From a virus, in IMG/VR virus record IMGVR_UViG_3300003178_000001, positions 1-36,639 of that record: a DNA stretch of 36,639 nt, one strand, 5' to 3'. A program made the position numbers and the translations under genes. Below, piece after piece: positions 4,081-36,639 of the stretch (position 1 is the first letter of the stretch; each line of letters opens with the position of its first letter). Under the pieces are notes generated by a model. It saw only the letters and a program-made list of their open reading frames with translations, did no database searches and was not told the origin of the DNA.

Positions 4081-4213
4081 TCCAGTAGAACGGCTGGATT
4101 ACCCACCGCCCCGCGTTCACCAGGGGCAAGCGGCCCGGCCCTGAAAGGGCGAGCCTGCACGAGCAGACTACTCCCCTCGCAAGATGAATGTTTAATTCTT
4201 GACGGAGGGAGAC

Positions 4214-5107
4214 ATGAGTTACTCGATTCCCCAGCATCACGTTCAGCAGTACCGTGGCAACATCCGCATCCTGGCGCAGCAGAAGAAGAGTCGCCTCTAT
4301 CGGACGACTCAGCATGACGGGGATGTGGTCGGCAAACGGGTGTACTACGACCGGATCGGGGCGACTTCGGCCCAGCGGATCACCACTCGCCACGGCGATA
4401 CCCCGCTGAACCAGGTGCCGCACTCCAGACGTGCGGCGGACATGCTCGACTACGATACCGCCGACCTGGTGGATAAGGTGGACCGGCTCAAGACGCTGTA
4501 CTCGCCGGACAACTACTACGCCAAGGTCCAGAGTGCGGCCCTGGGTCGGAGCATCGACGATGTGATCATCTCGGCCCTGGGTGGCTCGGCCCTGGAAGGC
4601 GAGGACGGGAGCACGTCCGTGGCCCTGCCGTCCAGCCAGAAGGTCGCCGTCAACGATCACACCTACGACAGCCTGACCGGCAATATCGGCCTCACCACGT
4701 CGAAGCTGTTGGTCGCACGGGACATCATGCTCGGTGCCGAGGTGGACGAGGATGAAAAGTTCTATGTCGTCTGCTCCCAGAAGCAGCTTTCAAACCTGCT
4801 GGCCGACGACAAGGTGCCGAGCAACGACTACAACACGGTCAAGGCCCTGGTCAGGGGCGAGATCAACACCTGGCTTGGGTTCGAGTTCGTGCGCTCCGAG
4901 CGCCTGCCGACCGATTCCAACGGCTACCGCCTGATCTATGCCTACACGGGGTCCGCCGTGGGCTGTGACATGGCTCAGGACATCACCGTGGACATCGGGC
5001 CGAGACGCGACAAGCGCAACGCAACGCAGATCTACTCCTGCATGAGTCTGGGTGCTGTTCGCATCGAGGATTCTCATGTCGTGGAGATTGCGTGTCTCGA
5101 ATCCTGA
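4214..5107 (+). CDS. Major capsid protein
   Basis: A 297-aa protein beginning MSYSIPQHHVQQYRGN. It follows the scaffold and has a strong GGAGGGAG ribosome-binding site five bases from the ATG. The length and pattern match HK97-fold coat proteins of podoviruses: an N-terminal arm, an acidic E-loop-like region near residues 40-75, long central helices (LVDKVDRLKTLYSPDNYYAKV) and a beta-rich C-terminus. It has its own promoter and a long structured leader (4081-4213). Codon use is GC-rich, with many GCC, CTG and CGC codons, as expected for a highly expressed gene. Confidence 0.92.
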   Translation: MSYSIPQHHVQQYRGNIRILAQQKKSRLYRTTQHDGDVVGKRVYYDRIGATSAQRITTRHGDTPLNQVPHSRRAADMLDYDTADLVDKVDRLKTLYSPDNYYAKVQSAALGRSIDDVIISALGGSALEGEDGSTSVALPSSQKVAVNDHTYDSLTGNIGLTTSKLLVARDIMLGAEVDEDEKFYVVCSQKQLSNLLADDKVPSNDYNTVKALVRGEINTWLGFEFVRSERLPTDSNGYRLIYAYTGSAVGCDMAQDITVDIGPRRDKRNATQIYSCMSLGAVRIEDSHVVEIACLES

Positions 5108-5142
5108 TCTCGTCCGAGATCGTGACTCAATGAGGTGAGAAC

Positions 5143-5628
5143 ATGGCGACGAAGAACAGCACTCAGTACCAGGATCCGAACAGCCTGGTGAATCCGAGAT
5201 TCCAGCCGACGCATGAGCTGTATGGCCGGATTCGGTTTGCCCGGTGCAACTACAACCAGGGAGCGAGCGGTGGCGCGGCGGGCGACATCCAGCGCCTCGT
5301 GTTCATCGAATCGGGCCCTGTGCGCCTGATCCTGCCGCTGTGCCGGTTCGCGGTGTCTGCGTTCGGTGGCACGGGCATCACCCTGGATCTGGGCCATGAG
5401 GCGTACAAGAAGAGCGACGGCACCACCGTGGCTCAGAACCTGACGGCCTTCGACAGCGGGTTCGACGCATCGACGGGCGGCACGTGGGTTCCCACCGGCA
5501 CCGTGGGGGGCGATGAGACGTTCCTGATCGATACCCAGGACGGCGTTTCCATCGTGTCCAGCGTGCAGGGCGGGGCCATCCCTGCGAACGCAACCATCGA
5601 CGGCTATCTGGTGTTCGTGGTCGACTAA
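5143..5628 (+). CDS. Probable capsid decoration protein
   Basis: A 161-aa Gly/Thr/Val-rich, beta-predicted protein 35 bases after the major capsid gene and ending just before an intrinsic terminator, so capsid and this gene form one short high-expression unit. It has no catalytic motif, membrane segment or signal peptide. Position and composition fit a head decoration or stabilising protein. That function is inferred from context, since the sequence family is only vaguely familiar as a post-capsid phage protein. Confidence 0.72.
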   Translation: MATKNSTQYQDPNSLVNPRFQPTHELYGRIRFARCNYNQGASGGAAGDIQRLVFIESGPVRLILPLCRFAVSAFGGTGITLDLGHEAYKKSDGTTVAQNLTAFDSGFDASTGGTWVPTGTVGGDETFLIDTQDGVSIVSSVQGGAIPANATIDGYLVFVVD

Positions 5629-5664
5629 CAAGAACGATGTTGTCCTCCCGTTCCAGCAGAGGTT

Positions 5665-5692
5665 AGGGGCCGAGTTCGGCCCCTCTTTTTTT
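5665..5692 (+). terminator. Rho-independent terminator after the capsid unit
   Basis: An 8-bp perfect GC-rich stem (5665-5672 with 5677-5684), an AGTT tetraloop and a run of seven T residues (5686-5692) lie 36 bases after the decoration gene stop. It should end or reduce transcription from the capsid promoter, lowering expression of the tail genes relative to capsid. Confidence 0.92.
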
Positions 5693-5705
5693 CCAGGAGG
5701 CGCAA

Positions 5706-6299
5706 ATGGGGGTTCCGACAGAAACTGATGTAGCCAATGCTGCGCTGTCACTGATCAGTGAGGTGAGCATCAGTACGCTTGACGATGCAACCGCACCGGC
5801 CAGGCTGTGCAAGCTGTTCCTCCCTCTGTGCCGCAAGCGCGTGCTGAGGGAGGGACAGTTCAATTTTGCCGTCACCAGGGAGGATTTGCCGAAAAGCACG
5901 GTCAGTCCGAAACACAAGTGGTCATACGAATTCAAATTGCCAGGGAATTACCTGCGTGCGCTGCTCATCAACGAAGATCCGAAAATAGAATTCGAGGTAT
6001 CCCAGCGTTTCCTAAGAACGGATGAGGAAACGGTAGAGTTGAAATACGTGTATGATGAGCAGGATTATTCAAAGTGGGATGACATCGCAATATCGGCGCT
6101 CTATTACCTGCTGGCATCACGCCTGGCTATCCCGATCACCAGAGACAAGGACGTGGCCACGCTGATGCTAGCGCAGTACAACAACGAGATCGAGGATGCG
6201 ATGGAGATAGACAGCCAGGAGAGCGGGCCAGCCGTGCTCGTGTCGGATGATCTCATTGATCCTCGCGGGGTTGAATCCATCGGCAGATCGAACAGATGA
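5706..6299 (+). CDS. Tail tubular protein A
   Basis: A 197-aa protein matching the length and opening of T7 gp11-type adaptor proteins: TETDVANAALSLISEVSIST followed by ALCRKRVLREGQFNFA-like residues (CRKRVLREGQFNFAVTRED) and a YEFKLPGNYLRAL segment. Twelve copies form the ring joining portal to tail nozzle. AGGAGG sits seven bases before the ATG. Its stop overlaps the next start (ATGA), as expected for the paired tail tube genes. Confidence 0.93.
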   Translation: MGVPTETDVANAALSLISEVSISTLDDATAPARLCKLFLPLCRKRVLREGQFNFAVTREDLPKSTVSPKHKWSYEFKLPGNYLRALLINEDPKIEFEVSQRFLRTDEETVELKYVYDEQDYSKWDDIAISALYYLLASRLAIPITRDKDVATLMLAQYNNEIEDAMEIDSQESGPAVLVSDDLIDPRGVESIGRSNR

Positions 6300-8779
6300 G
6301 GACATTCCGAACCATCACAGATGTCACTAGGGGCGAAGTAAGCCCGCGCCTGTGGGGGAGAACTGACAGCGAAATCTACCGTCGCGCCGCAAAGACGATG
6401 AAAAACATGCTGGCGCGGCCCCAGGGTATGTTTGAGCGTCGCCCTGGATTCAGATTGCACAGGAAGAGCTTGACATCATTCTATTCTGGCAAGCAGGTCA
6501 GGATCAGGACGTTCCAGGCCACGGATACGGACAGCTATGCAATTGAGTTCTCCGGCTCGGAGATCGAAATTCACAAGATTGGAGACAGCACCTACGGGCA
6601 CAAGGTGTTCATCCCTTCACAGAATTTCACCTATGGATATGGGGGGTGGAACGCAACGGCGACAGCCACGGAAGGCGTGCCGAATGTGTTGAACGGTGCC
6701 GTGTACCTTGGCCCGGCAACATCCGGGTACAGGCAAATATCGACCAAGATCAACGTTACTCCAGGAGCGACATACACGTTCAATGTTGGAGGATCTGGCG
6801 GGTCGCTGTTGAACAAATGGGTCGGAACGGTAGAAGCTGGTGCAGATATACATGCATCGACAGGCTTCGGATCGTTTACGTTTACCGTACCATCAAACGT
6901 GTACGAAGCATGGCTCACGTTCAACGTGTCCAACACGTCGACGACCGTTCTTGTGGATTACGTGAGTGATAACACTGCGCAGAAACCCAGGGTGGTGCGA
7001 AAGCTGGTGTGCAATCCTGAGAGCGTCGACGTTGTGCAGTCAGTTGATGTGATGTATGTGGTTTCAAACAAGCTGGGCAGCCTGCCCAGGGGGAATGTCC
7101 CGCAGAAAATAAAGCGCAACACAGATGAAGATTGGAGCACCGAACCATTGGTGCTCAAAAACGGTCCGTTTGGGCCCTACAACATCAATAAGAACAAGAC
7201 TCTCCGCGCAACCAGCTTTCCGTCCTGGTCGTCTGGCGAGGAAGGAGTTCTTGTAATTGGCGGATGGGATGACGATTCGGAACTTCCCTTTGCGCAGACA
7301 GACGTGGACATGCAAGGGGTGTTCTGGCTGGAAGATCCGAACGATCCTGCAAATTATTGCAGGTTGCAGGTCAAGGCCGGGCAAACGCTATCAGGGAATA
7401 CAAGCATTGCAGTGATAGCGCTGGACAATATCCCTGCATCGTTGCAGAACGTGAACACGTGGGTGTGGAGGGCTCCCGCCTTCGGGTCATACAATGGATT
7501 TCCTCGCACCGTGTTTCTGTACCAGGACAGGCTGGTGTTTGGCGGGACGGACAAGCAGCCGGACACGCTGTTTTTTTCTGCCACGTCTGATTACGAGGAT
7601 TTCGACGAGACGAAAACGACGGCAGACGCCGCGTTTCAGGTGACGCTGAACTCAAGGGAGTTCAACGGGATCCAGTGGATAGACGGCGGCGAGGACTTGG
7701 TGGTTGGAACCCAGGGTGAGGAATGGTTCCTGAGAGGATCCAACGGGGTGATCAGCAATGCGACGACGATAGCAAGAACACATTCATCCCGTGGGTCTGA
7801 AAGGATAGCGCCGGTCAAAGTCGGGCAATATCTTCTATTCGTTCAGGCTGGGGGACGAAGGATCAGAGAATTTATCTATGACTACGACACCCAGAGCTAC
7901 AAGACTCCGGATGTGACGATCATAGCGGATCATCTGATGCAGGGTGATCCCGTCGTGGACATAGCATTGCAGCGGGAACCGGATCCTATCATCTGGTGTG
8001 TTACGCAGTCTGGAAAGTTGGTTGGCCTGACTTACGACAGGGACAATGACGTGTTCGCTTGGCATCAACATGACACGCCAAGCGGGAATTTTCTCTCTGT
8101 GACAGTCGTCAGACGGAACAACAGGGATGTGCTTGTTGCATTGGTTGATCGTGGTGTTCTTGAAAATGGAAGGCTTCATATCGAATGGATGGACACTGAG
8201 GACTGGAAGTTTGCCAGCACGAAAGACGCCAGGAAGGCGGTTTATTTCGATATGGCCGTGATGAGTGTAGCGGATGATGAATCGTGTCAATTCAATGGAA
8301 ATACAAGCTGGGGAGGCTCTACGGAATTTAAGGACATTGCAAACCTGACCATCAACGGATTGATTGATGCGACGGAAGAAAAGAATCTCACTGTTGCCAG
8401 TGATGGAACAGTCAACACAAAAACTGCGGGATGCGTGTTCGTTGGTGGGCTGGAATATCAATCAATGTTCGAGGCCCTTCCTGTTGCTCTAGGGCAACCG
8501 GATTTGGTCCAGGGAAGAAAGAAAGGGCTGGGTGAATTGTCGATTCAGTTCATAGATTCTCTGGGGGCCAAGGTAAATGACACCATACTGGAATGGGAAA
8601 AAACCGGAGACAAATGGGGGCTGGAGACGTTTGGAACCGAGATAACCCCTGTGACAGAACGGAAGATAATCCATGTCGTGGGATGGTCGTTCGATGCGCC
8701 AATCAAGATTGAATCCGTGAGCGGATTGCCGCTTGGGGTGGCGCATGTTGCGGCGGTGATGGAGGTTTCATCGATCTAA
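6296..8779 (+). CDS. Tail tubular protein B (tail nozzle)
   Basis: An 827-aa protein of T7 gp12 type. It begins with a family-typical segment ending VTRGEVSPRLWGRTD and then MLARPQGMFERRPGFR. YQDRLVFGGTDKQPDTLFFS and GIQWIDGGEDLVVGTQGEEW form the conserved core of the nozzle beta-propeller. A carbohydrate-binding-like beta insertion at about residues 115-215 (Gly/Thr-rich, FNVGGSGG) is not in T7 gp12 and may add host binding. The stop and next start overlap in TAATG. Confidence 0.93.
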   Translation: MRTFRTITDVTRGEVSPRLWGRTDSEIYRRAAKTMKNMLARPQGMFERRPGFRLHRKSLTSFYSGKQVRIRTFQATDTDSYAIEFSGSEIEIHKIGDSTYGHKVFIPSQNFTYGYGGWNATATATEGVPNVLNGAVYLGPATSGYRQISTKINVTPGATYTFNVGGSGGSLLNKWVGTVEAGADIHASTGFGSFTFTVPSNVYEAWLTFNVSNTSTTVLVDYVSDNTAQKPRVVRKLVCNPESVDVVQSVDVMYVVSNKLGSLPRGNVPQKIKRNTDEDWSTEPLVLKNGPFGPYNINKNKTLRATSFPSWSSGEEGVLVIGGWDDDSELPFAQTDVDMQGVFWLEDPNDPANYCRLQVKAGQTLSGNTSIAVIALDNIPASLQNVNTWVWRAPAFGSYNGFPRTVFLYQDRLVFGGTDKQPDTLFFSATSDYEDFDETKTTADAAFQVTLNSREFNGIQWIDGGEDLVVGTQGEEWFLRGSNGVISNATTIARTHSSRGSERIAPVKVGQYLLFVQAGGRRIREFIYDYDTQSYKTPDVTIIADHLMQGDPVVDIALQREPDPIIWCVTQSGKLVGLTYDRDNDVFAWHQHDTPSGNFLSVTVVRRNNRDVLVALVDRGVLENGRLHIEWMDTEDWKFASTKDARKAVYFDMAVMSVADDESCQFNGNTSWGGSTEFKDIANLTINGLIDATEEKNLTVASDGTVNTKTAGCVFVGGLEYQSMFEALPVALGQPDLVQGRKKGLGELSIQFIDSLGAKVNDTILEWEKTGDKWGLETFGTEITPVTERKIIHVVGWSFDAPIKIESVSGLPLGVAHVAAVMEVSSI

Positions 8780-9210
8780 TGGCTTGGTGGCTAGCAGCGG
8801 CAGGTGTTGGGCTGTCCCTGATTGGTGGCAGCAAGAGGCGCAAGGCCAGGCGTCGAGAGGCCGAGCAAAGGATGCGTTTGGCCCGGATGAAGGCAGATTT
8901 GAGGTGGGAACAATTCCTGGATGATGCAAAGGAATTTGAGCGTCAGCTTCGGCAGTACGTGGGGAAACAGAAGGCAATGGTCGGGGCATCTGGCGTCACC
9001 ATGGCAGGAGGGCCAATGACGATCATCCAGGAGACGCTGAGAATAGGGGAGGAAGATTTGCAGACCATGTACAGAAACGCGGACAGGGAAATCAGATTTA
9101 TCCTGTCCGGCGGAGAAATGCAGTTGAAAGCTGCAAGAGACATGAACAAGGCTGATTTCTATTCTGACATCGGCAATGCAATGCTGAGTTTCGGGTCATT
9201 CATCGAATGA
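8779..9210 (+). CDS. Internal virion protein, T7 gp14-like
   Basis: A 143-aa protein with a hydrophobic N-terminus (WWLAAAGVGLSLIGG), a basic patch (KRRKARRRE) and a helical remainder with GASGVTMAGGPM near the middle. This is a recurrent pattern in small podovirus internal virion proteins, which form the outer-membrane part of the ejection channel. It is coupled to tail tubular protein B by a one-base overlap and to the next gene by ATGA. Family assignment rests on pattern and position. Confidence 0.82.
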   Translation: MAWWLAAAGVGLSLIGGSKRRKARRREAEQRMRLARMKADLRWEQFLDDAKEFERQLRQYVGKQKAMVGASGVTMAGGPMTIIQETLRIGEEDLQTMYRNADREIRFILSGGEMQLKAARDMNKADFYSDIGNAMLSFGSFIE

Positions 9211-10748
9211 AACTGATCATTCCCAACAGACGTGTTCGCCTGACAACCCAAGTCCCAGAAGCGCCTTACGATGCGAGTGGAGAAATCGCGCAAGGAAAGG
9301 TGATTGGGGCACTCGGCAACAAGCTGACCAATCTCTGCATTAGGTTGGAGAAAGCAGCGAGGGAGGCGAGACAGAAGGCAGAGGCGACACAGGCGCTCTC
9401 AGAGGTCGAAGAAGCATATGAAGAATGGTTCTTCGAGAGATCTCAGGATCCGAGTCCTGAGTCATACGAGACGCTGGTAAGTGATGCGAAACAGGTGCAA
9501 AGGAGCTTGCTCCAGCATATCGAGGACAAGATAGAAGATCCGGAGCTACGGGCATCTGCATCCAATTCCGCGATAAAGTATTTCAGAAAAAAGACAGCAG
9601 AGGCACGTGTAAAGGCCCGCGAGCACGCAGTCGGATATACCCGTGCACTGGATGACCTGGTTAGCGCGAAGGCTGCAAAAGTGCTGGCACTTCAAGACTC
9701 TCCTGAACGTGTGCAGGAGGGAAAGCAGCAGTTCGCAGATCACATCCGTAGCCAAATGGAGCTTGGCGTGTACTCTCCGGAGGAAGCGGTCAAGAGAACG
9801 ATGTCGTTCAATTCCTCCGTGGACGAGGCACGCATCATTCGCCGTCTCAGGGAAAATCCGGACATTGTTCTTGCGGAGTTGATGAACAATGAACTCCTGA
9901 ATCAGTCGTATCCGGATTTGGATGCGGAGCGACGGGAAAGACTGATAAACCAGTCGATTAGATACATCGAAGCCAAGGCAAGACAAGAGGATATTGAAAG
10001 GAGACAGCGGGAGCGCGAGGAAGAACGTGCCCTTAAAAGGGCATGGGCGAAGAATGAGGGAGAATTGTGGGCCAGGGTGTTCTCTCCGAACATGGAAGAT
10101 GTTCCGTCGTACCAGGAAATCGCGGATATGGTGGAGAAACAGGAACTCAACCCTGACAAGGCGGACATCTACTACAAGGCATTGCAGGCCAGGGCAAAGG
10201 ATCAGGGAATAGACGATCCGCAGATTGCGGAACGGATTGAAAGACAGGTTCATCTCGGTGAAATCACGGATCCATCTGTCATCATTGGGATGGTTGGAAA
10301 CGGGCTGTCAATGGAAACAGCGAGGCGTCTCATCGGAGACATGAGGAATCCGATTATCCTGTCGAATCCACAGTACAAAGAGGCCGTGATGTGGCTTGAG
10401 GGAGTCATCGGATACAACCCAATTGCCGGAGTTGGAATCAATCCTGCGGTGCAAGCGAAGGCAGCGGAGGCCAGGCGTGAGCTTCGCGTGCTGGTGACTG
10501 AAGGAGAAGATCCATGGGATGCGGCAATCAGGATTGCGCCGAAATACAAGAAAATCACATCCAGCATGATTCCTGATACCACGTACCAGACAGTGGAAGA
10601 GGTCATGCAGGCACTATCCGATGGTGATATTTCAGAACGAGAGGCGGAAATCGAAATCAGCAGAATCAAGATGAAGGAAGCCGCGAAGCGTCGTACAGAA
10701 GAGGCCATGCAAGCACTGGAGGCGAGAAAGAATGAAGCACAGCAGTGA
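9207..10748 (+). CDS. Internal virion protein, helical (gp15-like position)
   Basis: A 513-aa, very highly charged and almost wholly helical protein. Long coiled-coil segments occur at about residues 40-75, 95-160 and 245-290 (ERRQREREEERALKRAW) and in the last 60 residues. No enzyme motif is visible. Its place between a gp14-like protein and a very large virion protein matches T7 gp15, which lines the periplasmic ejection tunnel. It overlaps the next gene by 17 bases. AGA, AGG and CGT codons are common, in keeping with the encoded tRNA-Arg(UCU). Confidence 0.78.
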   Translation: MKLIIPNRRVRLTTQVPEAPYDASGEIAQGKVIGALGNKLTNLCIRLEKAAREARQKAEATQALSEVEEAYEEWFFERSQDPSPESYETLVSDAKQVQRSLLQHIEDKIEDPELRASASNSAIKYFRKKTAEARVKAREHAVGYTRALDDLVSAKAAKVLALQDSPERVQEGKQQFADHIRSQMELGVYSPEEAVKRTMSFNSSVDEARIIRRLRENPDIVLAELMNNELLNQSYPDLDAERRERLINQSIRYIEAKARQEDIERRQREREEERALKRAWAKNEGELWARVFSPNMEDVPSYQEIADMVEKQELNPDKADIYYKALQARAKDQGIDDPQIAERIERQVHLGEITDPSVIIGMVGNGLSMETARRLIGDMRNPIILSNPQYKEAVMWLEGVIGYNPIAGVGINPAVQAKAAEARRELRVLVTEGEDPWDAAIRIAPKYKKITSSMIPDTTYQTVEEVMQALSDGDISEREAEIEISRIKMKEAAKRRTEEAMQALEARKNEAQQ

Positions 10749-19306: not shown

Positions 19307-20060
19307 TATCATGCTGATTGTCGGCCTCGTCGCCGGGTCGGTGATGTTCGCGTGGCTGCTATGGTCACACTATCTCACCGTCATGTCGCTATATCGCGCC
19401 TACAAGAAATACCGGGCGCAGGGGAAGCATCTCCCGTGGATGTCGAAGCTGTTCGGGGCACCGCATATCCCGCTGTTTCTGATCGAGGATTTCGTGTTCA
19501 ACATCTTCCCTGGGTCGCTGATGTTCCTGGAATTGCCCAGGTACGACAAGCGGGAATGGCTGCTTACTGCCAGGTTGTCGAGATGGAATGACACCAGCGG
19601 ATGGCGCGGCAGGCTGTCGAAGGAGTTGTGCCGCCAGATGCTCGATCCATTCCAGGATGGCGGCCATTGTTGGGCAATTATCCTTGCGGTGGTGTTGGTT
19701 CTGGCCCCGAATCCTGGTCATGCTTCGGGGCCGGAGGCGTCCTTTACTCGGGTATGGTGCGAACAGCATGGCGGGATCTGGTCAGAGCACCGGCTGAATC
19801 AGAGGCTCACGATTCGCCATGCGTGGGATGGCCGGGTCGTCGGGTTTGCGGATTGCTTGGTCAAAGACGGTATTGTTGAGGTGGACCATGGGGATGCGTG
19901 GAAAGAAGGGGTTTCGCAAGCGTTGTGGTACTCCATGCACACGGGGCAGAAGGCGATCTTGGTGCTGATCACCACACAGGATTCAAACCATTACCGTGAT
20001 GCCGTGAGGTTTGTCGAGCATTACAAACTCCCCGTCCGAATCGAGGCGGTGCAGCGATGA
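19299..20060 (+). CDS. Fusion of a phage membrane protein and a nuclease-like domain
   Basis: A 253-aa protein with two recognisable parts. Residues 1-124 match a phage lysis-region membrane protein: TM at 3-25, a second hydrophobic stretch at about 53-76, then RLSRWNDTSGWRGRLS and a terminal DPFQDGGHC. Residues 125-144 (WAIILAVVLVLAPNPGHASG) look like a signal peptide, as if a second gene began here. Residues 148-253 carry CEQHGGI, EVD (E194, D196) and WKEGVSQALWYS, a pattern found in PD-(D/E)XK-like phage proteins. An in-frame ATG at 19638 could allow separate translation of the second half. Function is unknown. Confidence 0.78.
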   Translation: MDSIMLIVGLVAGSVMFAWLLWSHYLTVMSLYRAYKKYRAQGKHLPWMSKLFGAPHIPLFLIEDFVFNIFPGSLMFLELPRYDKREWLLTARLSRWNDTSGWRGRLSKELCRQMLDPFQDGGHCWAIILAVVLVLAPNPGHASGPEASFTRVWCEQHGGIWSEHRLNQRLTIRHAWDGRVVGFADCLVKDGIVEVDHGDAWKEGVSQALWYSMHTGQKAILVLITTQDSNHYRDAVRFVEHYKLPVRIEAVQR

Positions 20061-20410
20061 AGTTCGAGATGCTTGCATGGGCCCTGGTCCTGCTCGTTGT
20101 CTCTACGGTGTCGGCTGTCGGCGGGTATCACTTCCATGCCTATCGCGCTGAGAAGGGAAAAGCGGAGGCTGTGGCGGCCCTGGAGCGCCAAAAGGCAGAG
20201 CTACAATCCAGGGTGGAGGAATTGGCCCAGGATCTCGCGGAGGCTCAGGCCAATGTCCGGGTCGTGTTCAAGGAGATCGAGGTGGAGGCGGAGAGACATG
20301 AAAGGGAAATTGCTGATGGTCAGTGCTTTGGCGCTGATGATGTACGGTTGCTCAACGCAGCCGCTACTGGTGAATCCTGGTCCGAAATTCCCGGATCGCC
20401 TGCTCCGTGA
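20057..20410 (+). CDS. Inner-membrane spanin (Rz-like)
   Basis: A 117-aa protein with an N-terminal membrane anchor (about residues 5-26, LAWALVLLVVSTVSAVGGYHF region), a long periplasmic coiled coil rich in Glu, Ala and Gln (residues 30-85), and a C-terminal CFGADDVRLLNAAATG typical of Rz-type i-spanins. A nested lipoprotein gene in another frame completes the pair. Together they would fuse inner and outer membranes as the last lysis step in a Gram-negative host. Confidence 0.88.
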   Translation: MKFEMLAWALVLLVVSTVSAVGGYHFHAYRAEKGKAEAVAALERQKAELQSRVEELAQDLAEAQANVRVVFKEIEVEAERHEREIADGQCFGADDVRLLNAAATGESWSEIPGSPAP

Positions 20411-20567
20411 GTGCCCGGAGAAATTGCCCGGCCTCAAGGACGGCACCAGAAACAATGTCAGGCGAACCATGATTGCATGGGCCAAGCAATACCATGGCTG
20501 CCGGGCACTCCAGGCGGCAGGCGCAAGGGCCATGAGGCGGGCCAACGAGGCCGTGAAACGTCCGTGA
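20298..20567 (+). CDS. Outer-membrane spanin lipoprotein (Rz1-like)
   Basis: An 89-aa lipoprotein whose start lies inside the i-spanin gene in a different frame, the classic Rz/Rz1 arrangement. The signal peptide MKGKLLMVSALALMMYGC ends in a lipobox-like MYGC with the cysteine at residue 18. The mature part is Pro-containing, then basic. It is longer than lambda Rz1 and extends 157 bases past the i-spanin stop. The ATG at 20298 is the last start before the signal peptide. The 3' end overlaps the GTGAAAC repeats. Confidence 0.87.
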   Translation: MKGKLLMVSALALMMYGCSTQPLLVNPGPKFPDRLLRECPEKLPGLKDGTRNNVRRTMIAWAKQYHGCRALQAAGARAMRRANEAVKRP

Positions 20568-20583
20568 AACGTCCGTGGAACAA
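20551..20583. repeat. Three tandem 11-bp repeats containing parS half-sites
   Basis: CCGTGAAACGT occurs twice in tandem (20551-20561, 20562-20572), followed by CCGTGGAACAA (20573-20583). Each holds GTGAAAC or GTGGAAC, one half of the ParB-binding palindrome, in exact 11-bp phase, about one DNA turn. The repeat overlaps the o-spanin stop and lies four bases before the first full palindrome. Confidence 0.75.
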
Positions 20584-20586
20584 CGA

Positions 20587-20602
20587 TGTTCCACGTGGAA
20601 CA
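20587..20602. promoter_or_regulatory. parS-like site 1
   Basis: TGTTCCACGTGGAACA is a perfect 16-bp palindrome (18 bp with the flanking A and T) and matches the chromosomal ParB-binding site parS known from Pseudomonas and related bacteria. It lies between the o-spanin gene and the next start. No parA or parB gene was recognised in this genome, so binding by host ParB is the simplest idea. ParB binding itself is inferred. Confidence 0.75.
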
Positions 20603-20624
20603 TCCTTGGAAGGAGGTGTGAAAC

Positions 20625-21065
20625 ATGGATAAATTATTGTTTTTCCTGGTAGCCGTGGTCTGCATGTTCCACGTGGAACATTCCAGGGCTGATGAGGTGT
20701 TCGTCGGCGTCACGTGGGATGGGGTTTCTCCAGGGGCGTACATCCAGGCGGTGGACGACGGTGTGGCCGTCTCCATGGAGATCGGCAGTTCTCCGGCGTT
20801 CTCCGTTGGGGCGGCGAAAACGGACTCCAGGGCCGTTCTGATGGCTGGATTCAGGATGTCAGGAGAAGGTATTGGTCCCGTAATTTCGGCCAGGACGGCC
20901 AATGCTGGCGTGGCAGTCTCACGAGATCGAGTGTTTGGATATGTAGGTGGCTTGGTCAGGGAGAAATCGCCTCAGAGGGCTTCTCCGGCGCTCTCGGACG
21001 ACATCAAAAATCCGGAAAATCACCACGACGACGACAGGGAAAAGGAACATGCCTGCCGATTTTGA
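20625..21065 (+). CDS. Secreted hypothetical protein with parS-like site in its signal region
   Basis: A 146-aa protein with a GGAGGTG ribosome-binding site. Residues 1-23 form a probable signal peptide (MDKLLFFLVAVVCMFHVEHS, likely cleavage after SRA), the second half of which is encoded by the second parS-like palindrome. The mature part is Gly/Ala/Val-rich and beta-like (residues 25-105) with a polar His/Asp-rich tail. No family is recognised. It may be a periplasmic or surface protein that changes the infected cell. The signal peptide is atypical because of the inserted site. Confidence 0.65.
   Translation: MDKLLFFLVAVVCMFHVEHSRADEVFVGVTWDGVSPGAYIQAVDDGVAVSMEIGSSPAFSVGAAKTDSRAVLMAGFRMSGEGIGPVISARTANAGVAVSRDRVFGYVGGLVREKSPQRASPALSDDIKNPENHHDDDREKEHACRF
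20665..20680. promoter_or_regulatory. parS-like site 2
   Basis: A second identical TGTTCCACGTGGAACA, again flanked by A and T, lies 78 bases from the first (centre to centre). It falls inside the next gene, where it encodes MFHVEH in the middle of a secretion signal. A further half-site, GTGAAAC, lies between the two at 20618-20624. Exact repetition of an 18-bp palindrome in a coding and a non-coding setting argues for selection on the DNA site. Confidence 0.75.
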
Positions 21066-21204
21066 GAAGTGCGTTCGTGACGGTGGACGGGTGAGGACAA
21101 GGAGACTGCCCAATGGCCGCTATCAGCACCTGTGCATCAAGGATGGGAAGGTGTACGAGGGGGAGGTGAAGGTGAAAAAGAAAGCCCCGCAGAAGCGGGG
21201 CTGA
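21049..21204 (+). CDS. Small conserved-looking basic phage protein
   Basis: A 51-aa protein overlapping the previous stop. It begins MPADFEKCVRDGGRVRTRRL and continues with GRYQHLCIKDGKVYEGEVK, a pattern familiar from tiny phage proteins of unknown role. The basic C-terminus (KKKAPQKRG) is encoded by the stem of the terminator for the opposing operon. The ATG at 21049 has AAGGAA just upstream. An upstream in-frame start at 20947 would add an unlikely Thr/Arg-rich extension. Confidence 0.65.
   Translation: MPADFEKCVRDGGRVRTRRLPNGRYQHLCIKDGKVYEGEVKVKKKAPQKRG
21183..21202 (-). terminator. Intrinsic terminator of the leftward operon
   Basis: A perfect 8-bp stem (21183-21190 with 21195-21202) with a 4-base loop. 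Read leftward it is followed by TTTCTTTTT, giving a good rho-independent terminator for the genes at 21229-24860. Read rightward there is no T tract, so it is chiefly a leftward terminator. The stem lies within the last codons of the converging rightward gene. Confidence 0.85.
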
Positions 21205-22263: not shown

Positions 22264-22878
22264 CTAATCAAACAGTGTGTGCGGGTGGTTAACCATATCC
22301 TGTACTATCAGGACACGGGAGAGATACTGTTCGCGCCAGTCCGCAGGAACATCCACCCATTTCGTCCACAGATGGTTGTCGGCCTCCAGACAGAATGACG
22401 CGAACAGAACACGGTCGGCGTTCATCACCACGCCATGGTGCATGAGTTGGGGGAAGAATTTCCTCCATCCGCCGTTTATGATCTGGTGGTGGCGATCCGG
22501 TGTCATTGGACACTTGATTTCCAGCGGAGCACCATCCACCAGGCCATCGGGAGAATCACCCAGAATGTCGATCTCCTTGACGGAGACGAAACCGGGTGGC
22601 TCCTGGACGTTGAACCCCTCGATAGCAAGAGCCGCCTTTGCCGCTTCCTCACGTTCACGGCCCCATTCCAGGGCAGGGATCCCGTCTGTGGCATGACAGG
22701 CGATCATGGCAATCTCAGGCGAGATTGATTCACGCACCAACTCCACAGCCAGGGCTTTGTGCTTCGATGGATCGAAGGCACGTTGCGCCCGTGTCGATGT
22801 GATTTTACCCAGCCTGGCGCGGAACCATTCATCCGATCTCTGCTCGAAGGTATAGATCAGGGTCGGTGTCAGCTTCAT
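22264..22878 (-). CDS. YqaJ/lambda-exonuclease-type alkaline exonuclease
   Basis: A 204-aa protein begun at MKLTPTLIYTFEQRSDEWF, where ATG overlaps the RecT stop (ATGA on the minus strand). An upstream in-frame start at 22980 would read 34 odd residues and is rejected. Family motifs are RSDEWFRARLGKIT, GIPALEWGREREEAA, GDSPDGLVD and LEIKCP, the last two supplying the D...ExK active site. It would resect double-strand ends to make 3' single strands for RecT, acting on replicating phage DNA. Confidence 0.93.
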   Translation of the reverse strand: MKLTPTLIYTFEQRSDEWFRARLGKITSTRAQRAFDPSKHKALAVELVRESISPEIAMIACHATDGIPALEWGREREEAAKAALAIEGFNVQEPPGFVSVKEIDILGDSPDGLVDGAPLEIKCPMTPDRHHQIINGGWRKFFPQLMHHGVVMNADRVLFASFCLEADNHLWTKWVDVPADWREQYLSRVLIVQDMVNHPHTLFD

Positions 22879-23768
22879 TGCTCGTTCCTCTTGGCAAGAG
22901 CGTCTGCCAGAATGGATCTGGCCTTGTCGAACATATCTGCTGGCATGTCCGCTACCGATTTGAGCCCGAAAATCTGGCACAGGCGCTTCATCCAGCGCTG
23001 GACATCATCATCGTTCATTCCGGCATCGGACAGCATGGCGTGCAATTCCATGCACTGTTCATCCGAAATTACCCGGACGACCTGATCGGATACATCAGAT
23101 GGTTCCAAGCCTTCATATCTGTTCATCACTTCGAGAACTTCCTTGGGGCTGGCCGGAGTGTACTTCAGGAGCCGACGCACAGCGCACTTTCTCGCCATTT
23201 CCTCGAAAAACACTTTCCAGGCCAGGCCGTCCTTGTTTTTCGATCTGTCTCTGATTTTCCTGATCTGGTCGATGGTCAGATATTCAAAATACCTGTCACC
23301 GGACATCGTTTCGGCTAGAGCCCATGCACCGATGATGTTGCCGCGCCCTCCGATAGCGATTTTGTGGGTTACTTCAACGGTTGTGCCCTGATCGACGTGG
23401 AAAACATCGTTCTGGTACACAGCGGCAGCCCGCACGTACTTGAATTGGTTATCCCTCGTAGATGCGTGGATCAGGCCACGATAGGATATGTGTAGGTGCG
23501 CCTCGTGCACCCCTGTCTTTTTGTTGTAATACGGGATGAGATATGCATGGCCCAGATTCGGATCTAGCGTGATTCCAGCCGAAGCCGCACTCAGGAGTGA
23601 GTGCTGAATCGACTCTGGAGTGCATTTCTGAAGTTCTGGCTGTCGGTCGATCCAGGTGGCAAGATGCACTCGTTCCTGCGGCAGAGAGATCGGCCATTCC
23701 TTGTTGCGAGACGCTGAAAAGCTAGAGACGAATTTCTTTTCTTTGGTTACTGTGATGATGTCGTTCAT
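22875..23768 (-). CDS. recT: RecT-family single-strand annealing protein
   Basis: A 297-aa protein, near the usual RecT length. The start was chosen at MNDIITVTKEKK because GGAGGACAAA precedes it on the minus strand. Conserved features include SLLSAASAGITLDPNLGHAY, LIPYYNK, HLHISYRGLIHASTRDNQ, and WALAETMSGDRYFEYLTIDQI with ARKCAVRRLLKYTP. It anneals complementary single strands and partners with the adjacent exonuclease. The pair supports recombination-dependent replication or end repair. Confidence 0.95.
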   Translation of the reverse strand: MNDIITVTKEKKFVSSFSASRNKEWPISLPQERVHLATWIDRQPELQKCTPESIQHSLLSAASAGITLDPNLGHAYLIPYYNKKTGVHEAHLHISYRGLIHASTRDNQFKYVRAAAVYQNDVFHVDQGTTVEVTHKIAIGGRGNIIGAWALAETMSGDRYFEYLTIDQIRKIRDRSKNKDGLAWKVFFEEMARKCAVRRLLKYTPASPKEVLEVMNRYEGLEPSDVSDQVVRVISDEQCMELHAMLSDAGMNDDDVQRWMKRLCQIFGLKSVADMPADMFDKARSILADALAKRNEQ

Positions 23769-23816
23769 TTTGTCCTCCAGGGTTGAGGCGCGTCCCTGCG
23801 CCATCTCGGGCTTTCC

Positions 23817-24860
23817 TTACGCGGCGGATGCGGCAGCGAGCCCACGCATCCTCGACGTGCTGAGGGTCAGGATATTCCCTCCTTCCTGCTCCAAGGCAAG
23901 ACCTTCCTCGCCCTGGAGAAACCCTTGGTTGTGCGACATTTGGGTGATCGCATTGCTCACGTCCCAGCGCGTGATCTTTCGGTCCTTTTTGATCTCCGTC
24001 AGAATGTCGATCACGGCGGCCTTTCGATCCCTCGTGAGGGTAGGGGCGACCGTGCGAGTGAGCATCTTCACGAATTCCCTTACATCGTCTACGTCGATCT
24101 CTTCCATGGCGGATTCCTTGATCGGCTGGATGAACTCCCGGAAATTCGTGACAGCACTCGCCAGCGCCTTCTGAATCACATGCATCTCGAATGGAACCGT
24201 GTTGGGCGGGTCCAAGACCTGGAAGGCATCCGGGACGCGGCGCGAGATATGCTTGCGTGAATACGCATACACGTACTCCCGTCCGAACACACAGCCGTTC
24301 AGGCAGAAGTGCCGGAAGAATCCCACTCGCACACGGATCGGAGCCAGGCCGAACTCAGAATGGATCACTTCCACCATCGGAGAGACGCCATCACCAGGGG
24401 CAATGTCCTCTCGGATGTTGGGCCACAGAAACCGCATGTGATCGATCTTCCCGGCCCAGGCACCGAGAGGAAGCCCATCGTGGTCGATGACCAGATCCAT
24501 CATGGGCTCGAAGATGTCGGCGCTACGCACCCTGAGATAGCGGCGGGAAAGAACAGCCATAGCGCCGTTCGACTTGGTGCGGACCATCACCCGCTTATCG
24601 GGATCATGCATCGTGTTCATCACTTCCGACCACAGGGCGCAATTTTCCTTATATAGCGCCCGACTGAACGAATGGGACATCCCGACATCAGACGAAACCT
24701 GACCGAAAGCCGGATCTCTGATGTCGTAGATATGGCCGTTTTCCAACACGATGCCAGAGGGGGCGAAGCTGATGCGGGTGATGTAATCGATCAACTCCCG
24801 CCTCTTCATGTCGTGGTAGGTTTCGATTGCAACGTCTTTCATTTCCTTCAGATTTGCCAT
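23817..24860 (-). CDS. DUF932-like protein
   Basis: A 347-aa protein, first in the leftward operon. The start at MANLKEMKDV has GGAGG eight bases upstream; a longer start at 24896 lies in the promoter and is rejected. Segments RVMVRTKSNGAMAVLSRRYL, VRVGFFRHFCLNGCVFG and a C-terminal helical region with HNQGFLQGEEG fit the DUF932 pattern of phage and plasmid genomes. Function is unproven but the family often accompanies recombination genes. It is the main product of the leftward promoter. Confidence 0.78.
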   Translation of the reverse strand: MANLKEMKDVAIETYHDMKRRELIDYITRISFAPSGIVLENGHIYDIRDPAFGQVSSDVGMSHSFSRALYKENCALWSEVMNTMHDPDKRVMVRTKSNGAMAVLSRRYLRVRSADIFEPMMDLVIDHDGLPLGAWAGKIDHMRFLWPNIREDIAPGDGVSPMVEVIHSEFGLAPIRVRVGFFRHFCLNGCVFGREYVYAYSRKHISRRVPDAFQVLDPPNTVPFEMHVIQKALASAVTNFREFIQPIKESAMEEIDVDDVREFVKMLTRTVAPTLTRDRKAAVIDILTEIKKDRKITRWDVSNAITQMSHNQGFLQGEEGLALEQEGGNILTLSTSRMRGLAAASAA

Positions 24861-24883
24861 TTCTGTGTCCTCCGTCGGTTGTG

Positions 24884-24936
24884 TTTGTAGCAACAATAGG
24901 ACAAATTATATTTTTTGTCAATACGGTTGCTGCAAA
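24884..24936. promoter_or_regulatory. Paired inverted operators between divergent operons
   Basis: TTTGTAGCAAC (24884-24894) and GTTGCTGCAAA (24926-24936) are inverted copies with one mismatch, placed 42 bases apart, four DNA turns. The first covers the leftward -10; the second sits just upstream of the leftward -35 and inside the rightward promoter. The right copy has an internal palindrome TTGC-T-GCAA. They are candidate binding sites for the adjacent Cro-like protein. Confidence 0.65.
24893..24921 (-). promoter_or_regulatory. Leftward early promoter
   Basis: Reading the minus strand, TTGACA (24921-24916) and TATTGT (24898-24893) are separated by 17 bases, a good sigma70 fit with a perfect -35. 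It lies 33 bases before the DUF932-like start. The -10 overlaps an operator-like element. The -35 overlaps that of the proposed rightward promoter through the shared palindrome TTGTCAA/TTGACAA. Confidence 0.75.
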
Positions 24937-27802: not shown

Positions 27803-28224
27803 AACCTGATCACTTCAGAAATACTCAATCGAAAGAATCGAATTGCCTGTACTGCGAGGAATCGGCGTGTGTGGATGATAAGTGCATCACCCTCCGGTGC
27901 AGAAAACATGATTTCAACATCAACGGTAATGCGGAAGATCCGGAAAACTTCGTATGCAATGATTTCGACGATTTGACAAAGAAGCACGTAGGGGAAGGAG
28001 TAAACGATAATATCGTGTACTTCAACCTGATCCCGGTAACACCTGAAGAAATGGTAGAAATGCATCCTGATGAAGATTTAGCAAATCTTCGCAGGCTCGC
28101 AAAAACAACAGGGAAATGCGAGGTCTGCGGGAAAAACGACATATGGAGATATGGAGGGACCGGGATGTGTTTCCCGTGCACGACTGGCGAGACAGACGGG
28201 AGCAACGATTACGAGCTTATCTAG
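27799..28224 (+). CDS. Cysteine-rich hypothetical protein
   Basis: A 141-aa acidic protein with CLYCEESACVDDKC and LRCRKH near the N-terminus and CEVCGKNDIW...CFPCTTGE near the C-terminus, giving two likely zinc-binding clusters. Its TAG stop shares its last base with the first base of the tRNA gene. Function unknown; a nucleic-acid-binding early protein is possible. Confidence 0.68.
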   Translation: MKPDHFRNTQSKESNCLYCEESACVDDKCITLRCRKHDFNINGNAEDPENFVCNDFDDLTKKHVGEGVNDNIVYFNLIPVTPEEMVEMHPDEDLANLRRLAKTTGKCEVCGKNDIWRYGGTGMCFPCTTGETDGSNDYELI

Positions 28225-28300
28225 GGCCGGTAGCTCAACTGGATAGAGCAGTAGGCTTCTAACCTACAGGGTGCAGGTTCGAGTCCTGCCCGGTCTGCCA
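28224..28300 (+). tRNA. tRNA-Arg (anticodon UCU)
   Basis: A full 77-nt cloverleaf: a 7-bp acceptor stem with two G-U pairs, D stem GCTC/GAGC, anticodon stem GTAGG/CCTAC with loop CTTCTAA (anticodon TCT at 28258-28260), variable loop AGGGT, T stem GCAGG/CCTGC with loop TTCGAGT, discriminator G and an encoded CCA. It reads AGA and AGG, which many genes in this phage use heavily. The first base overlaps the preceding stop codon. Confidence 0.97.
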
Positions 28301-35571: not shown

Positions 35572-35813
35572 CGGAGAACGAGGCATTTCGCATCCTGGAC
35601 GAGAACGGATGGTGGCTCGATCTCACAAGGCTGCCCAAGGAACGCACCCTGAAGCAGGCGTGGTCTGCCCAGGTGGTCACTGCGCCCAGGGATCAGGACG
35701 CGCTCCAGGTCGTCATGGGGAAAGGGCTCGCTGACAGCAGGAGCGATGCTGTGGTCAAGGCGGTTCAGGATGCGGTGAAGCCCAAGAAGAGGAAGAGCCG
35801 TGGACGAAAATGA
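35568..35813 (+). CDS. Small hypothetical protein before terL
   Basis: An 81-aa protein beginning MTENEAFRILDENGWWLDLT, with a very basic tail (KPKKRKSRGRK). The ATG overlaps the previous stop, and the gene overlaps the terL GTG by 14 bases. A basic tail before the terminase could suit DNA binding, but no family is known. Confidence 0.6.
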   Translation: MTENEAFRILDENGWWLDLTRLPKERTLKQAWSAQVVTAPRDQDALQVVMGKGLADSRSDAVVKAVQDAVKPKKRKSRGRK

Positions 35814-36639
35814 AATCGTGATCCAGTACGATTTCGACGACGCGCCGACCGTCCAGCAGTTCGTCAACTCCAACGCGCCCAGACCGGCCATCATGGGGCC
35901 GTTCGGCTCCGGCAAGAGCACAGGCTGCATCATCAAGCTATTGCGAGAATGTTATTTGCAGTGGCCGGACAAGGATGGCGTGAGGCGCGTCCGATCCTTC
36001 GTGGTGCGGAACACGTACCGCCAGCTTGAAGACACCACCATCCGCACCTTCATGGAGTGGCTGCCCGAAACGCACTTCGGGGAGTACAACAAGAAAAATC
36101 ACAACTACATGATCCTTGGGCTTGAGGGAGTGGAATGGGAAGTGCTGTTTCGAGCCCTGGACCGTCCCGATCATGTGCAGAACCTGCTATCGCTGGAAGT
36201 GACCAATGCCTGGCTCAACGAAGCCAGGGAATTGCCGTGGGCGGTCGTCGAGGCCCTGTGGGGCCGCCTGGGACGGTTCCCGTCGAAGCGCAGCGGGAAA
36301 GGCGCGAGGCGCAAGATGATGATCATGGATACCAACCCGCCTCCCGAAAATTCATGGTTCGCGGATGTCTACATCAAGCGCCCGCGCAAGGGGTTCGTCC
36401 TGTACCGGCAGCCGGGCGGCATGGACAAGAACGCAGAGAACCGCAAGCACCTTCCGGACAGGTACTACGAAGATCTGCTGGAGGTCATGGACGAGGAAAC
36501 GGCAAGAGTCTACGTTCACGGCGAGCTTGGCGTCATCAAGCGCGGGATGAGGGTATATCCAGAGTACCGCGAGCAGATTCATTCGCGGGGCAACATCGAG
36601 CCCATCAGCCACCTTACCAACCGCAGGCTGTGGCGGGGG
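35800..36639 (+). CDS. terL: Terminase large subunit, N-terminal ATPase part (continues at 1)
   Basis: The packaging motor ATPase. GTG at 35800 has GAAGAG upstream and gives MDENEIVIQYDFDDAP. Walker A is GPFGSGKST (residues 33-41, Lys39). A Walker B-like acidic segment lies near LEVTNAWLNEARELPW. The following MIMDTNPPPENSWF-type segment (MDTNPPPENSWF) suits the coupling motif. The frame continues through the junction to 758, giving 502 aa. A GTG start and a 14-base overlap with the prior gene may lower its translation. Confidence 0.95.
   Translation, partial: MDENEIVIQYDFDDAPTVQQFVNSNAPRPAIMGPFGSGKSTGCIIKLLRECYLQWPDKDGVRRVRSFVVRNTYRQLEDTTIRTFMEWLPETHFGEYNKKNHNYMILGLEGVEWEVLFRALDRPDHVQNLLSLEVTNAWLNEARELPWAVVEALWGRLGRFPSKRSGKGARRKMMIMDTNPPPENSWFADVYIKRPRKGFVLYRQPGGMDKNAENRKHLPDRYYEDLLEVMDEETARVYVHGELGVIKRGMRVYPEYREQIHSRGNIEPISHLTNRRLWRG
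36551..36639. repeat. Terminal direct repeat, right copy
   Basis: Identical over 89 bases to the window start. Collapsing the copies leaves terL intact and a 36,550-bp circle. Confidence 0.95.

Follow-up and report, generated by a model that had tools for sequence, protein, structure and literature searches.

A 127-bp cluster in a podophage genome is best explained, from its sequence, as an orphan centromere-like element that consists of two putative chromosomal-type parS sites with flanking half-sites. The two sites probably function in cis to recruit the ParB protein of the host. The wider novelty, suggested by the counts in other viral DNA, is that many phages may carry orphan parS sites. 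ParB closes on DNA as a CTP clamp, spreads over many kilobases, and couples the DNA to ParA and the SMC condensin. A phage with neither an integrase nor partition genes is generally expected to kill its host or to be lost when the host divides. The window, i.e., the whole stretch of DNA analyzed here (36,639 nt), is the sole contig of the virus genome record IMGVR_UViG_3300003178_000001.

Two parS palindromes and a half-site array in the late operon

A preliminary description of this DNA had reported two identical 18-bp palindromes 78 bp apart, and both were found to be exact and at the places given. Copy 1, ATGTTCCACGTGGAACAT, is at positions 20586-20603, between an Rz1-like gene that ends at 20567 and the next ORF, which starts at 20625. 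Its palindrome extends to 20 bp (GATGTTCCACGTGGAACATC, 20585-20604), and it is placed just upstream of the ribosome-binding site of that ORF. Copy 2, again ATGTTCCACGTGGAACAT, is at 20664-20681, in the signal-peptide region of the ORF at 20625-21065, where it encodes MFHVEH. The ORF positions confirmed the earlier statement that one copy is non-coding and the other sits in a signal-peptide coding region, and the accompanying proposal, that selection acts on the DNA itself and not on the peptide, seems to be supported. Each 18-bp palindrome includes the parS core TGTTCCACGTGGAACA, and both match the 16-bp chromosomal-type parS motif TGTTYCACGTGRAACA exactly. No other perfect palindrome of the window is as long; none of the dinucleotide shuffles of the window matched the observed site count, and the number of exact 16-mer copies expected per window from base composition is about 7 × 10^-6.

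The half-sites that had been described at 20553, 20564, 20575 and 20618 were all real. The first three are direct repeats on the plus strand (GTGAAAC, GTGAAAC and GTGGAAC, 20553-20581), the first of them overlapping the end of the Rz1-like gene, and they are not independent of each other, because their 11-bp period stems from a tandem duplication. The fourth, detected by the half-site scan, is an isolated GTGAAAC on the plus strand at 20618-20624 (GTGAAACA when the next base is included). Of the 13 ParB half-sites GTGRAAC that the window contains, 8 lie within the 127 bp from 20553 to 20679. When the palindromes were left out, four of nine half-sites fell in this region (p = 1.8 × 10^-8), a value to be read with the facts that three of them come from one duplication and that the region was picked post hoc. 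The late operon ends with this cluster, and some 500 bp separate it from a GC-rich hairpin (21183-21202, with its T-run scored on the minus strand) that marks the convergent junction of the late (plus strand) and recombination (minus strand) operons. No sigma-70-like promoter was found near the parS sites.

Gene content of the phage

Bases 1-89 of the window are identical to bases 36551-36639, and this exact 89-bp end overlap lies inside the large-terminase gene, whose N-terminal part is at 35800-36639 on the plus strand and which continues, past the repeated bases, to position 758. Since the gene spans the junction, the map closes into a circle of 36,550 bp, and the genome appears complete once closed in this way. 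The gene content, with a portal/head-tail adaptor, a capsid protein, tail tubular proteins and an O-like replication initiator, is that of a podophage with a T7-like tail. The phage also has a leftward recombination operon for DUF932, RecT and a YqaJ-type exonuclease, and a small HTH-like ORF is present at 24915. A lone tRNA-Arg (TCT) gene was observed in the early region, at 28224-28300.

Ahead of the cluster, the plus-strand ORF at 20057-20410 was read as an Rz-like inner-membrane spanin because of its position, signal anchor and coiled coil; the family search gave no significant match for it, and the spanin-like assignment follows from the gene arrangement. Embedded in or overlapping it, the plus-strand ORF at 20298-20567 would encode an Rz1-like lipoprotein, with the lipobox MMYGC read from the sequence. 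These predicted Rz/Rz1-like genes suggest a Gram-negative host. The 146-aa ORF that contains parS copy 2 (20625-21065, plus strand) has a signal peptide and matched no known family in the searches.

With regard to partition and integration, the earlier claim that such genes are missing proved true for the families searched. ParB_N (PF02195) and HTH_ParB (PF17762) gave no match in the closed phage map, and neither the ParA-type family AAA_31 (PF13614) nor the tyrosine integrase family was detected in the phage genome, with working controls in all these searches. No serine integrase was found among the Pfam scans of the phage genes tested.

The palindromes are a known ParB target

The core TGTTCCACGTGGAACA is the sequence of parS2 and parS3 of P. 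aeruginosa, which showed strong in vivo ParB binding by ChIP-seq (PMC5098823), and PMC10547168 used the full 18-mer ATGTTCCACGTGGAACAT as the parS of Bdellovibrio. The sequence is, therefore, a known ParB target, with published data that concern the Pseudomonas and Bdellovibrio ParBs and not that of the host of this phage. The term "Pseudomonas-type" used in the preliminary description is too narrow as a label, since other phyla use the same sequence. At other proposed P. aeruginosa sites, the in vivo binding of ParB was insignificant (PMC5098823), which makes the role of the phage half-sites uncertain and advises against over-reading them.

Occurrence of parS in other viral DNA

A count of the sequence in other phage genomes against chance, which had been put forward earlier as a check, showed that parS is strongly over-represented. 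In the IMG/VR scan, the 16-mer was found in at least 119 stretches, versus 1 for TTGTCCACGTGGACAA, a control palindrome of the same composition. When the 50,697 phage records of INPHARED (GenBank phages) were scanned, the two parS versions were present in 41 (matches of at least 17 bp) and 315 records, which are redundant, so that these counts do not equal independent events; three control palindromes of similar composition gave 0, 0 and 0 records. Carriers were found among phages of Pseudomonas (KPP25 and Lana have natural orphan sites), Listeria, Gordonia, Microbacterium, Arthrobacter, Lactobacillus, Bacillus, Ruegeria and Butyrivibrio. The sites were also present in Microviridae, in Spiroplasma phage 4 and in an inovirus, i.e., tailed, micro- and filamentous phages are all represented. 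Two parS separated by 40-70 bp were seen in 43 viral stretches, arrays contain up to eight sites, and one viral group has both parS versions together, 23-24 bp apart.

ParB_N had no match in any of 94 parS-bearing records, many of which are fragments (the search took in 97 records, and three capsid relatives without parS were left out of this figure), and HTH_ParB gave none above the cut-off in 47 records. Moreover, ORFs of 100 aa or more contain 51% of the parS sites, versus 80% of random positions (p = 3.6 × 10^-13), indicating that the sites favor intergenic DNA. Selection at the peptide level was considered, as 36 of 51 sites in ORFs of at least 150 aa use the VPRGT frame, but half of the sites are outside ORFs, and this explanation was rejected; the preferred frame was taken to be the one that does least harm. 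In Klebsiella RaK2-like phages, the parS sequence is inside a baseplate gene, and enterobacteria are not known to have chromosomal parABS, indicating that some of the phage copies are coincidental.

Several carriers with particular arrangements were also observed. The circular 6.2-kb inovirus PQ006097.1 (L347, Bajarodino virus 3) has six exact TGTTTCACGTGAAACA sites across its genome, at 704, 740, 3041, 3583, 4380 and 5921, and none of its annotated genes is for ParB. Eight parS, several of them at 38-bp steps, are at 6137-6460 of a 7.9-kb viral contig that lacks ParB_N (L167), and a 28.9-kb viral contig, also without ParB_N (L105), has five exact parS over 6 kb (4324-10457). The idea that multi-site contigs are mostly filamentous phages was discarded after a Zot search, in which just 3 of 48 were above the cut-off. 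In Microbacterium phages (H159, H161-H165), parS is within an annotated helix-turn-helix/DNA-binding protein gene in many relatives.

Conservation in relatives

Searches for close relatives with the MCP, portal, RecT and DUF932 gave distant kin or none. The capsid kin are Pelagibacter HTVC010P-type and Vibrio podophages, with at most 46% identity. RecT was found in 0 of 43 capsid relatives, and its best matches, from a search aimed at the host, have 39-40% identity and belong to mixed phyla, a spread that is uninformative as to the host. The genome is a mosaic, with an HTVC010P-type capsid module (4199-5107) joined to a RecT/YqaJ/DUF932 early module (22264-24896). Conservation of the palindromes in related phages, the other check suggested in the preliminary description, was followed in distant relatives, as closer kin were not found: exact parS was present in 0 of 42 whole records of the distant capsid family, none of which is a close relative covering the region.

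In family A2, collected by the capsid protein alone, 2 of 80 members have an exact parS after the capsid gene, and about nine further members have a decayed site at the same place, with one to three changes, mostly in the central CG. This result weakens a claim of strict conservation and, along with the count from the distant capsid family, suggests that the site is readily gained and lost, as expected for 16 bp. The conservation seen in an alignment of parS-selected loci was discounted, because those loci had been chosen for parS. Near-parS palindromes with the center CATGTG or CACATG were observed 3' of the capsid gene in L188-L190, L200, L206, L208, L209, L211 and L227; such palindromes, where relatives have the exact parS, may represent decay or altered specificity.

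Candidate ligand and alternative explanations

The published ParB binding, a phage without par genes, and the enrichment in unrelated, ParB-less viruses together point to the host ParB as the most economical ligand of the sites. The recruitment of host ParB fits this cross-virus enrichment better than titration, an operator or an RNA hairpin does. The sites could be the operator of a phage-encoded DNA-binding protein that regulates the late or lysis genes, with a coincidental likeness to parS, and the half-sites arrayed in 11-bp steps, the small HTH-like ORF at 24915 and the location of parS inside an HTH gene in Microbacterium phages would all agree with it. We regard such an operator as unlikely, given that the sites are within the late operon with no recognized promoter, sigma-70-like sequences included, that they are the exact published ParB target, and that what unrelated viruses of many hosts share is these two parS versions and not just any palindrome. 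Viral DNA contains hardly any copies of control palindromes with equal or similar composition, indicating that the sequence and not the hairpin shape is selected. This, along with the placement of copy 2 within a coding region, makes it very unlikely that the palindromes form RNA hairpins that tune the translation or stability of ORF 20625, even when palindrome 1 is a few bases 5' of the ribosome-binding site and the 20-mer stem folds at -10.3 kcal/mol.

The same sequence facts would fit a decoy, with the sites titrating host ParB or condensin and disrupting host segregation during infection; replication of the phage genome would multiply the sites, and arrays of up to eight are present in other viruses. 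Spreading of the chromosomal ParB of P. aeruginosa extends beyond 20 kb (PMC5098823), and two sites per genome would thus be a weak sink early in infection. Inoviridae also carry sites, yet their chronic infection keeps the host alive, and we consider a decoy distinctly unlikely. Chance, or captured host chromosome DNA with no present function, would agree with the absence of the sites from distant relatives, and a lineage with RecT and a YqaJ-type exonuclease could have gained them recently by recombination. This origin is, however, highly improbable when two exact copies, each with its own flanks, and the additional half-sites are set against the 7 × 10^-6 expected for one copy, and the neighboring genes are phage-like.

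Possible role of host-ParB recruitment and comparison with known systems

Loading of host ParB by the phage, as the preliminary description had proposed, is the best-supported reading, with the sequence and the enrichment in its favor; plasmid-like maintenance and sequestration of ParB or condensin, which had been proposed as well, are possible consequences that we infer from it. Upon entry or replication of the phage, host ParB would load at the two parS, spread over the phage DNA, and link the genome to the host ParA gradient and to SMC loading. The phage copies could then be positioned and passed to daughter cells via the host ParA and SMC in slow, starved or carrier-state infections. The specific benefit would be partition, positioning, condensin loading or titration, and we offer only as a tentative suggestion, with more doubt than confidence, that partition or carriage is overall the selected one.

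It is a serious possibility, although one we hold at slightly less than even confidence, that orphan parS borrowing host ParB is a general strategy that evolved many times in phages without partition genes. It would span tailed, microvirus and filamentous phages and both Gram-positive and Gram-negative hosts, and would tie phage genomes that stay unintegrated to the segregation system or condensin of the host; the phage under study, with its two perfect sites and half-site array, would be a clean example. If true, a borrowed centromere of about 16 bp would let such phages persist, position or condense their DNA, and the phi29 spore trick would be one case of a broad phenomenon. It would also allow carrier-state phages to be predicted, and provide a ready sequence marker testable in many laboratory phages, filamentous ones included. 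In the open-access literature, the scope of our search (subscription papers and preprints were outside it), we found no paper that describes orphan parS as a general phenomenon in phages.

Among plasmid-prophages with ParABS, P1, N15 and the RedRock-type mycobacteriophages are alike in having centromere-like sites, and the genome of our phage could similarly stay unintegrated. They differ in having their own ParA and ParB and a private centromere; neither parB nor parA is on this phage. The chromosomal parS of P. aeruginosa and Bdellovibrio (PMC5098823, PMC10547168) has the identical 16-18 bp palindrome and demonstrated ParB binding, whereas the putative sites described here are on a phage replicon without parAB. 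The sites for LexA, CtrA and Spo0A that phages borrow (PMC9437464) are comparable in that phage DNA bears sites for a conserved host protein, but the presumed ligand here acts in segregation, not as a transcription factor.

The closest likeness proposed here is to phi29, a virulent phage without partition genes of its own whose genome is handled by host ParB: according to Meijer et al. 2005, as cited in PMC9437464, host Spo0J (ParB) assists in trapping the genome in the spore. The preliminary description mentioned neither this precedent nor the wide occurrence of parS in viruses. In agreement, parS is present in our phage, and parAB and the tyrosine integrase are absent. phi29 differs in that it enters the spore under Spo0A control, whereas the present phage has spanin-like genes, which point to a Gram-negative host that does not sporulate, and in that two sites plus half-sites are clustered here after the lysis genes. 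By analogy with phi29, the benefit in a non-sporulating host would be that unintegrated genomes are retained and positioned in starved or dividing cells. The phi29 relative B103 has an exact parS in gene 15.
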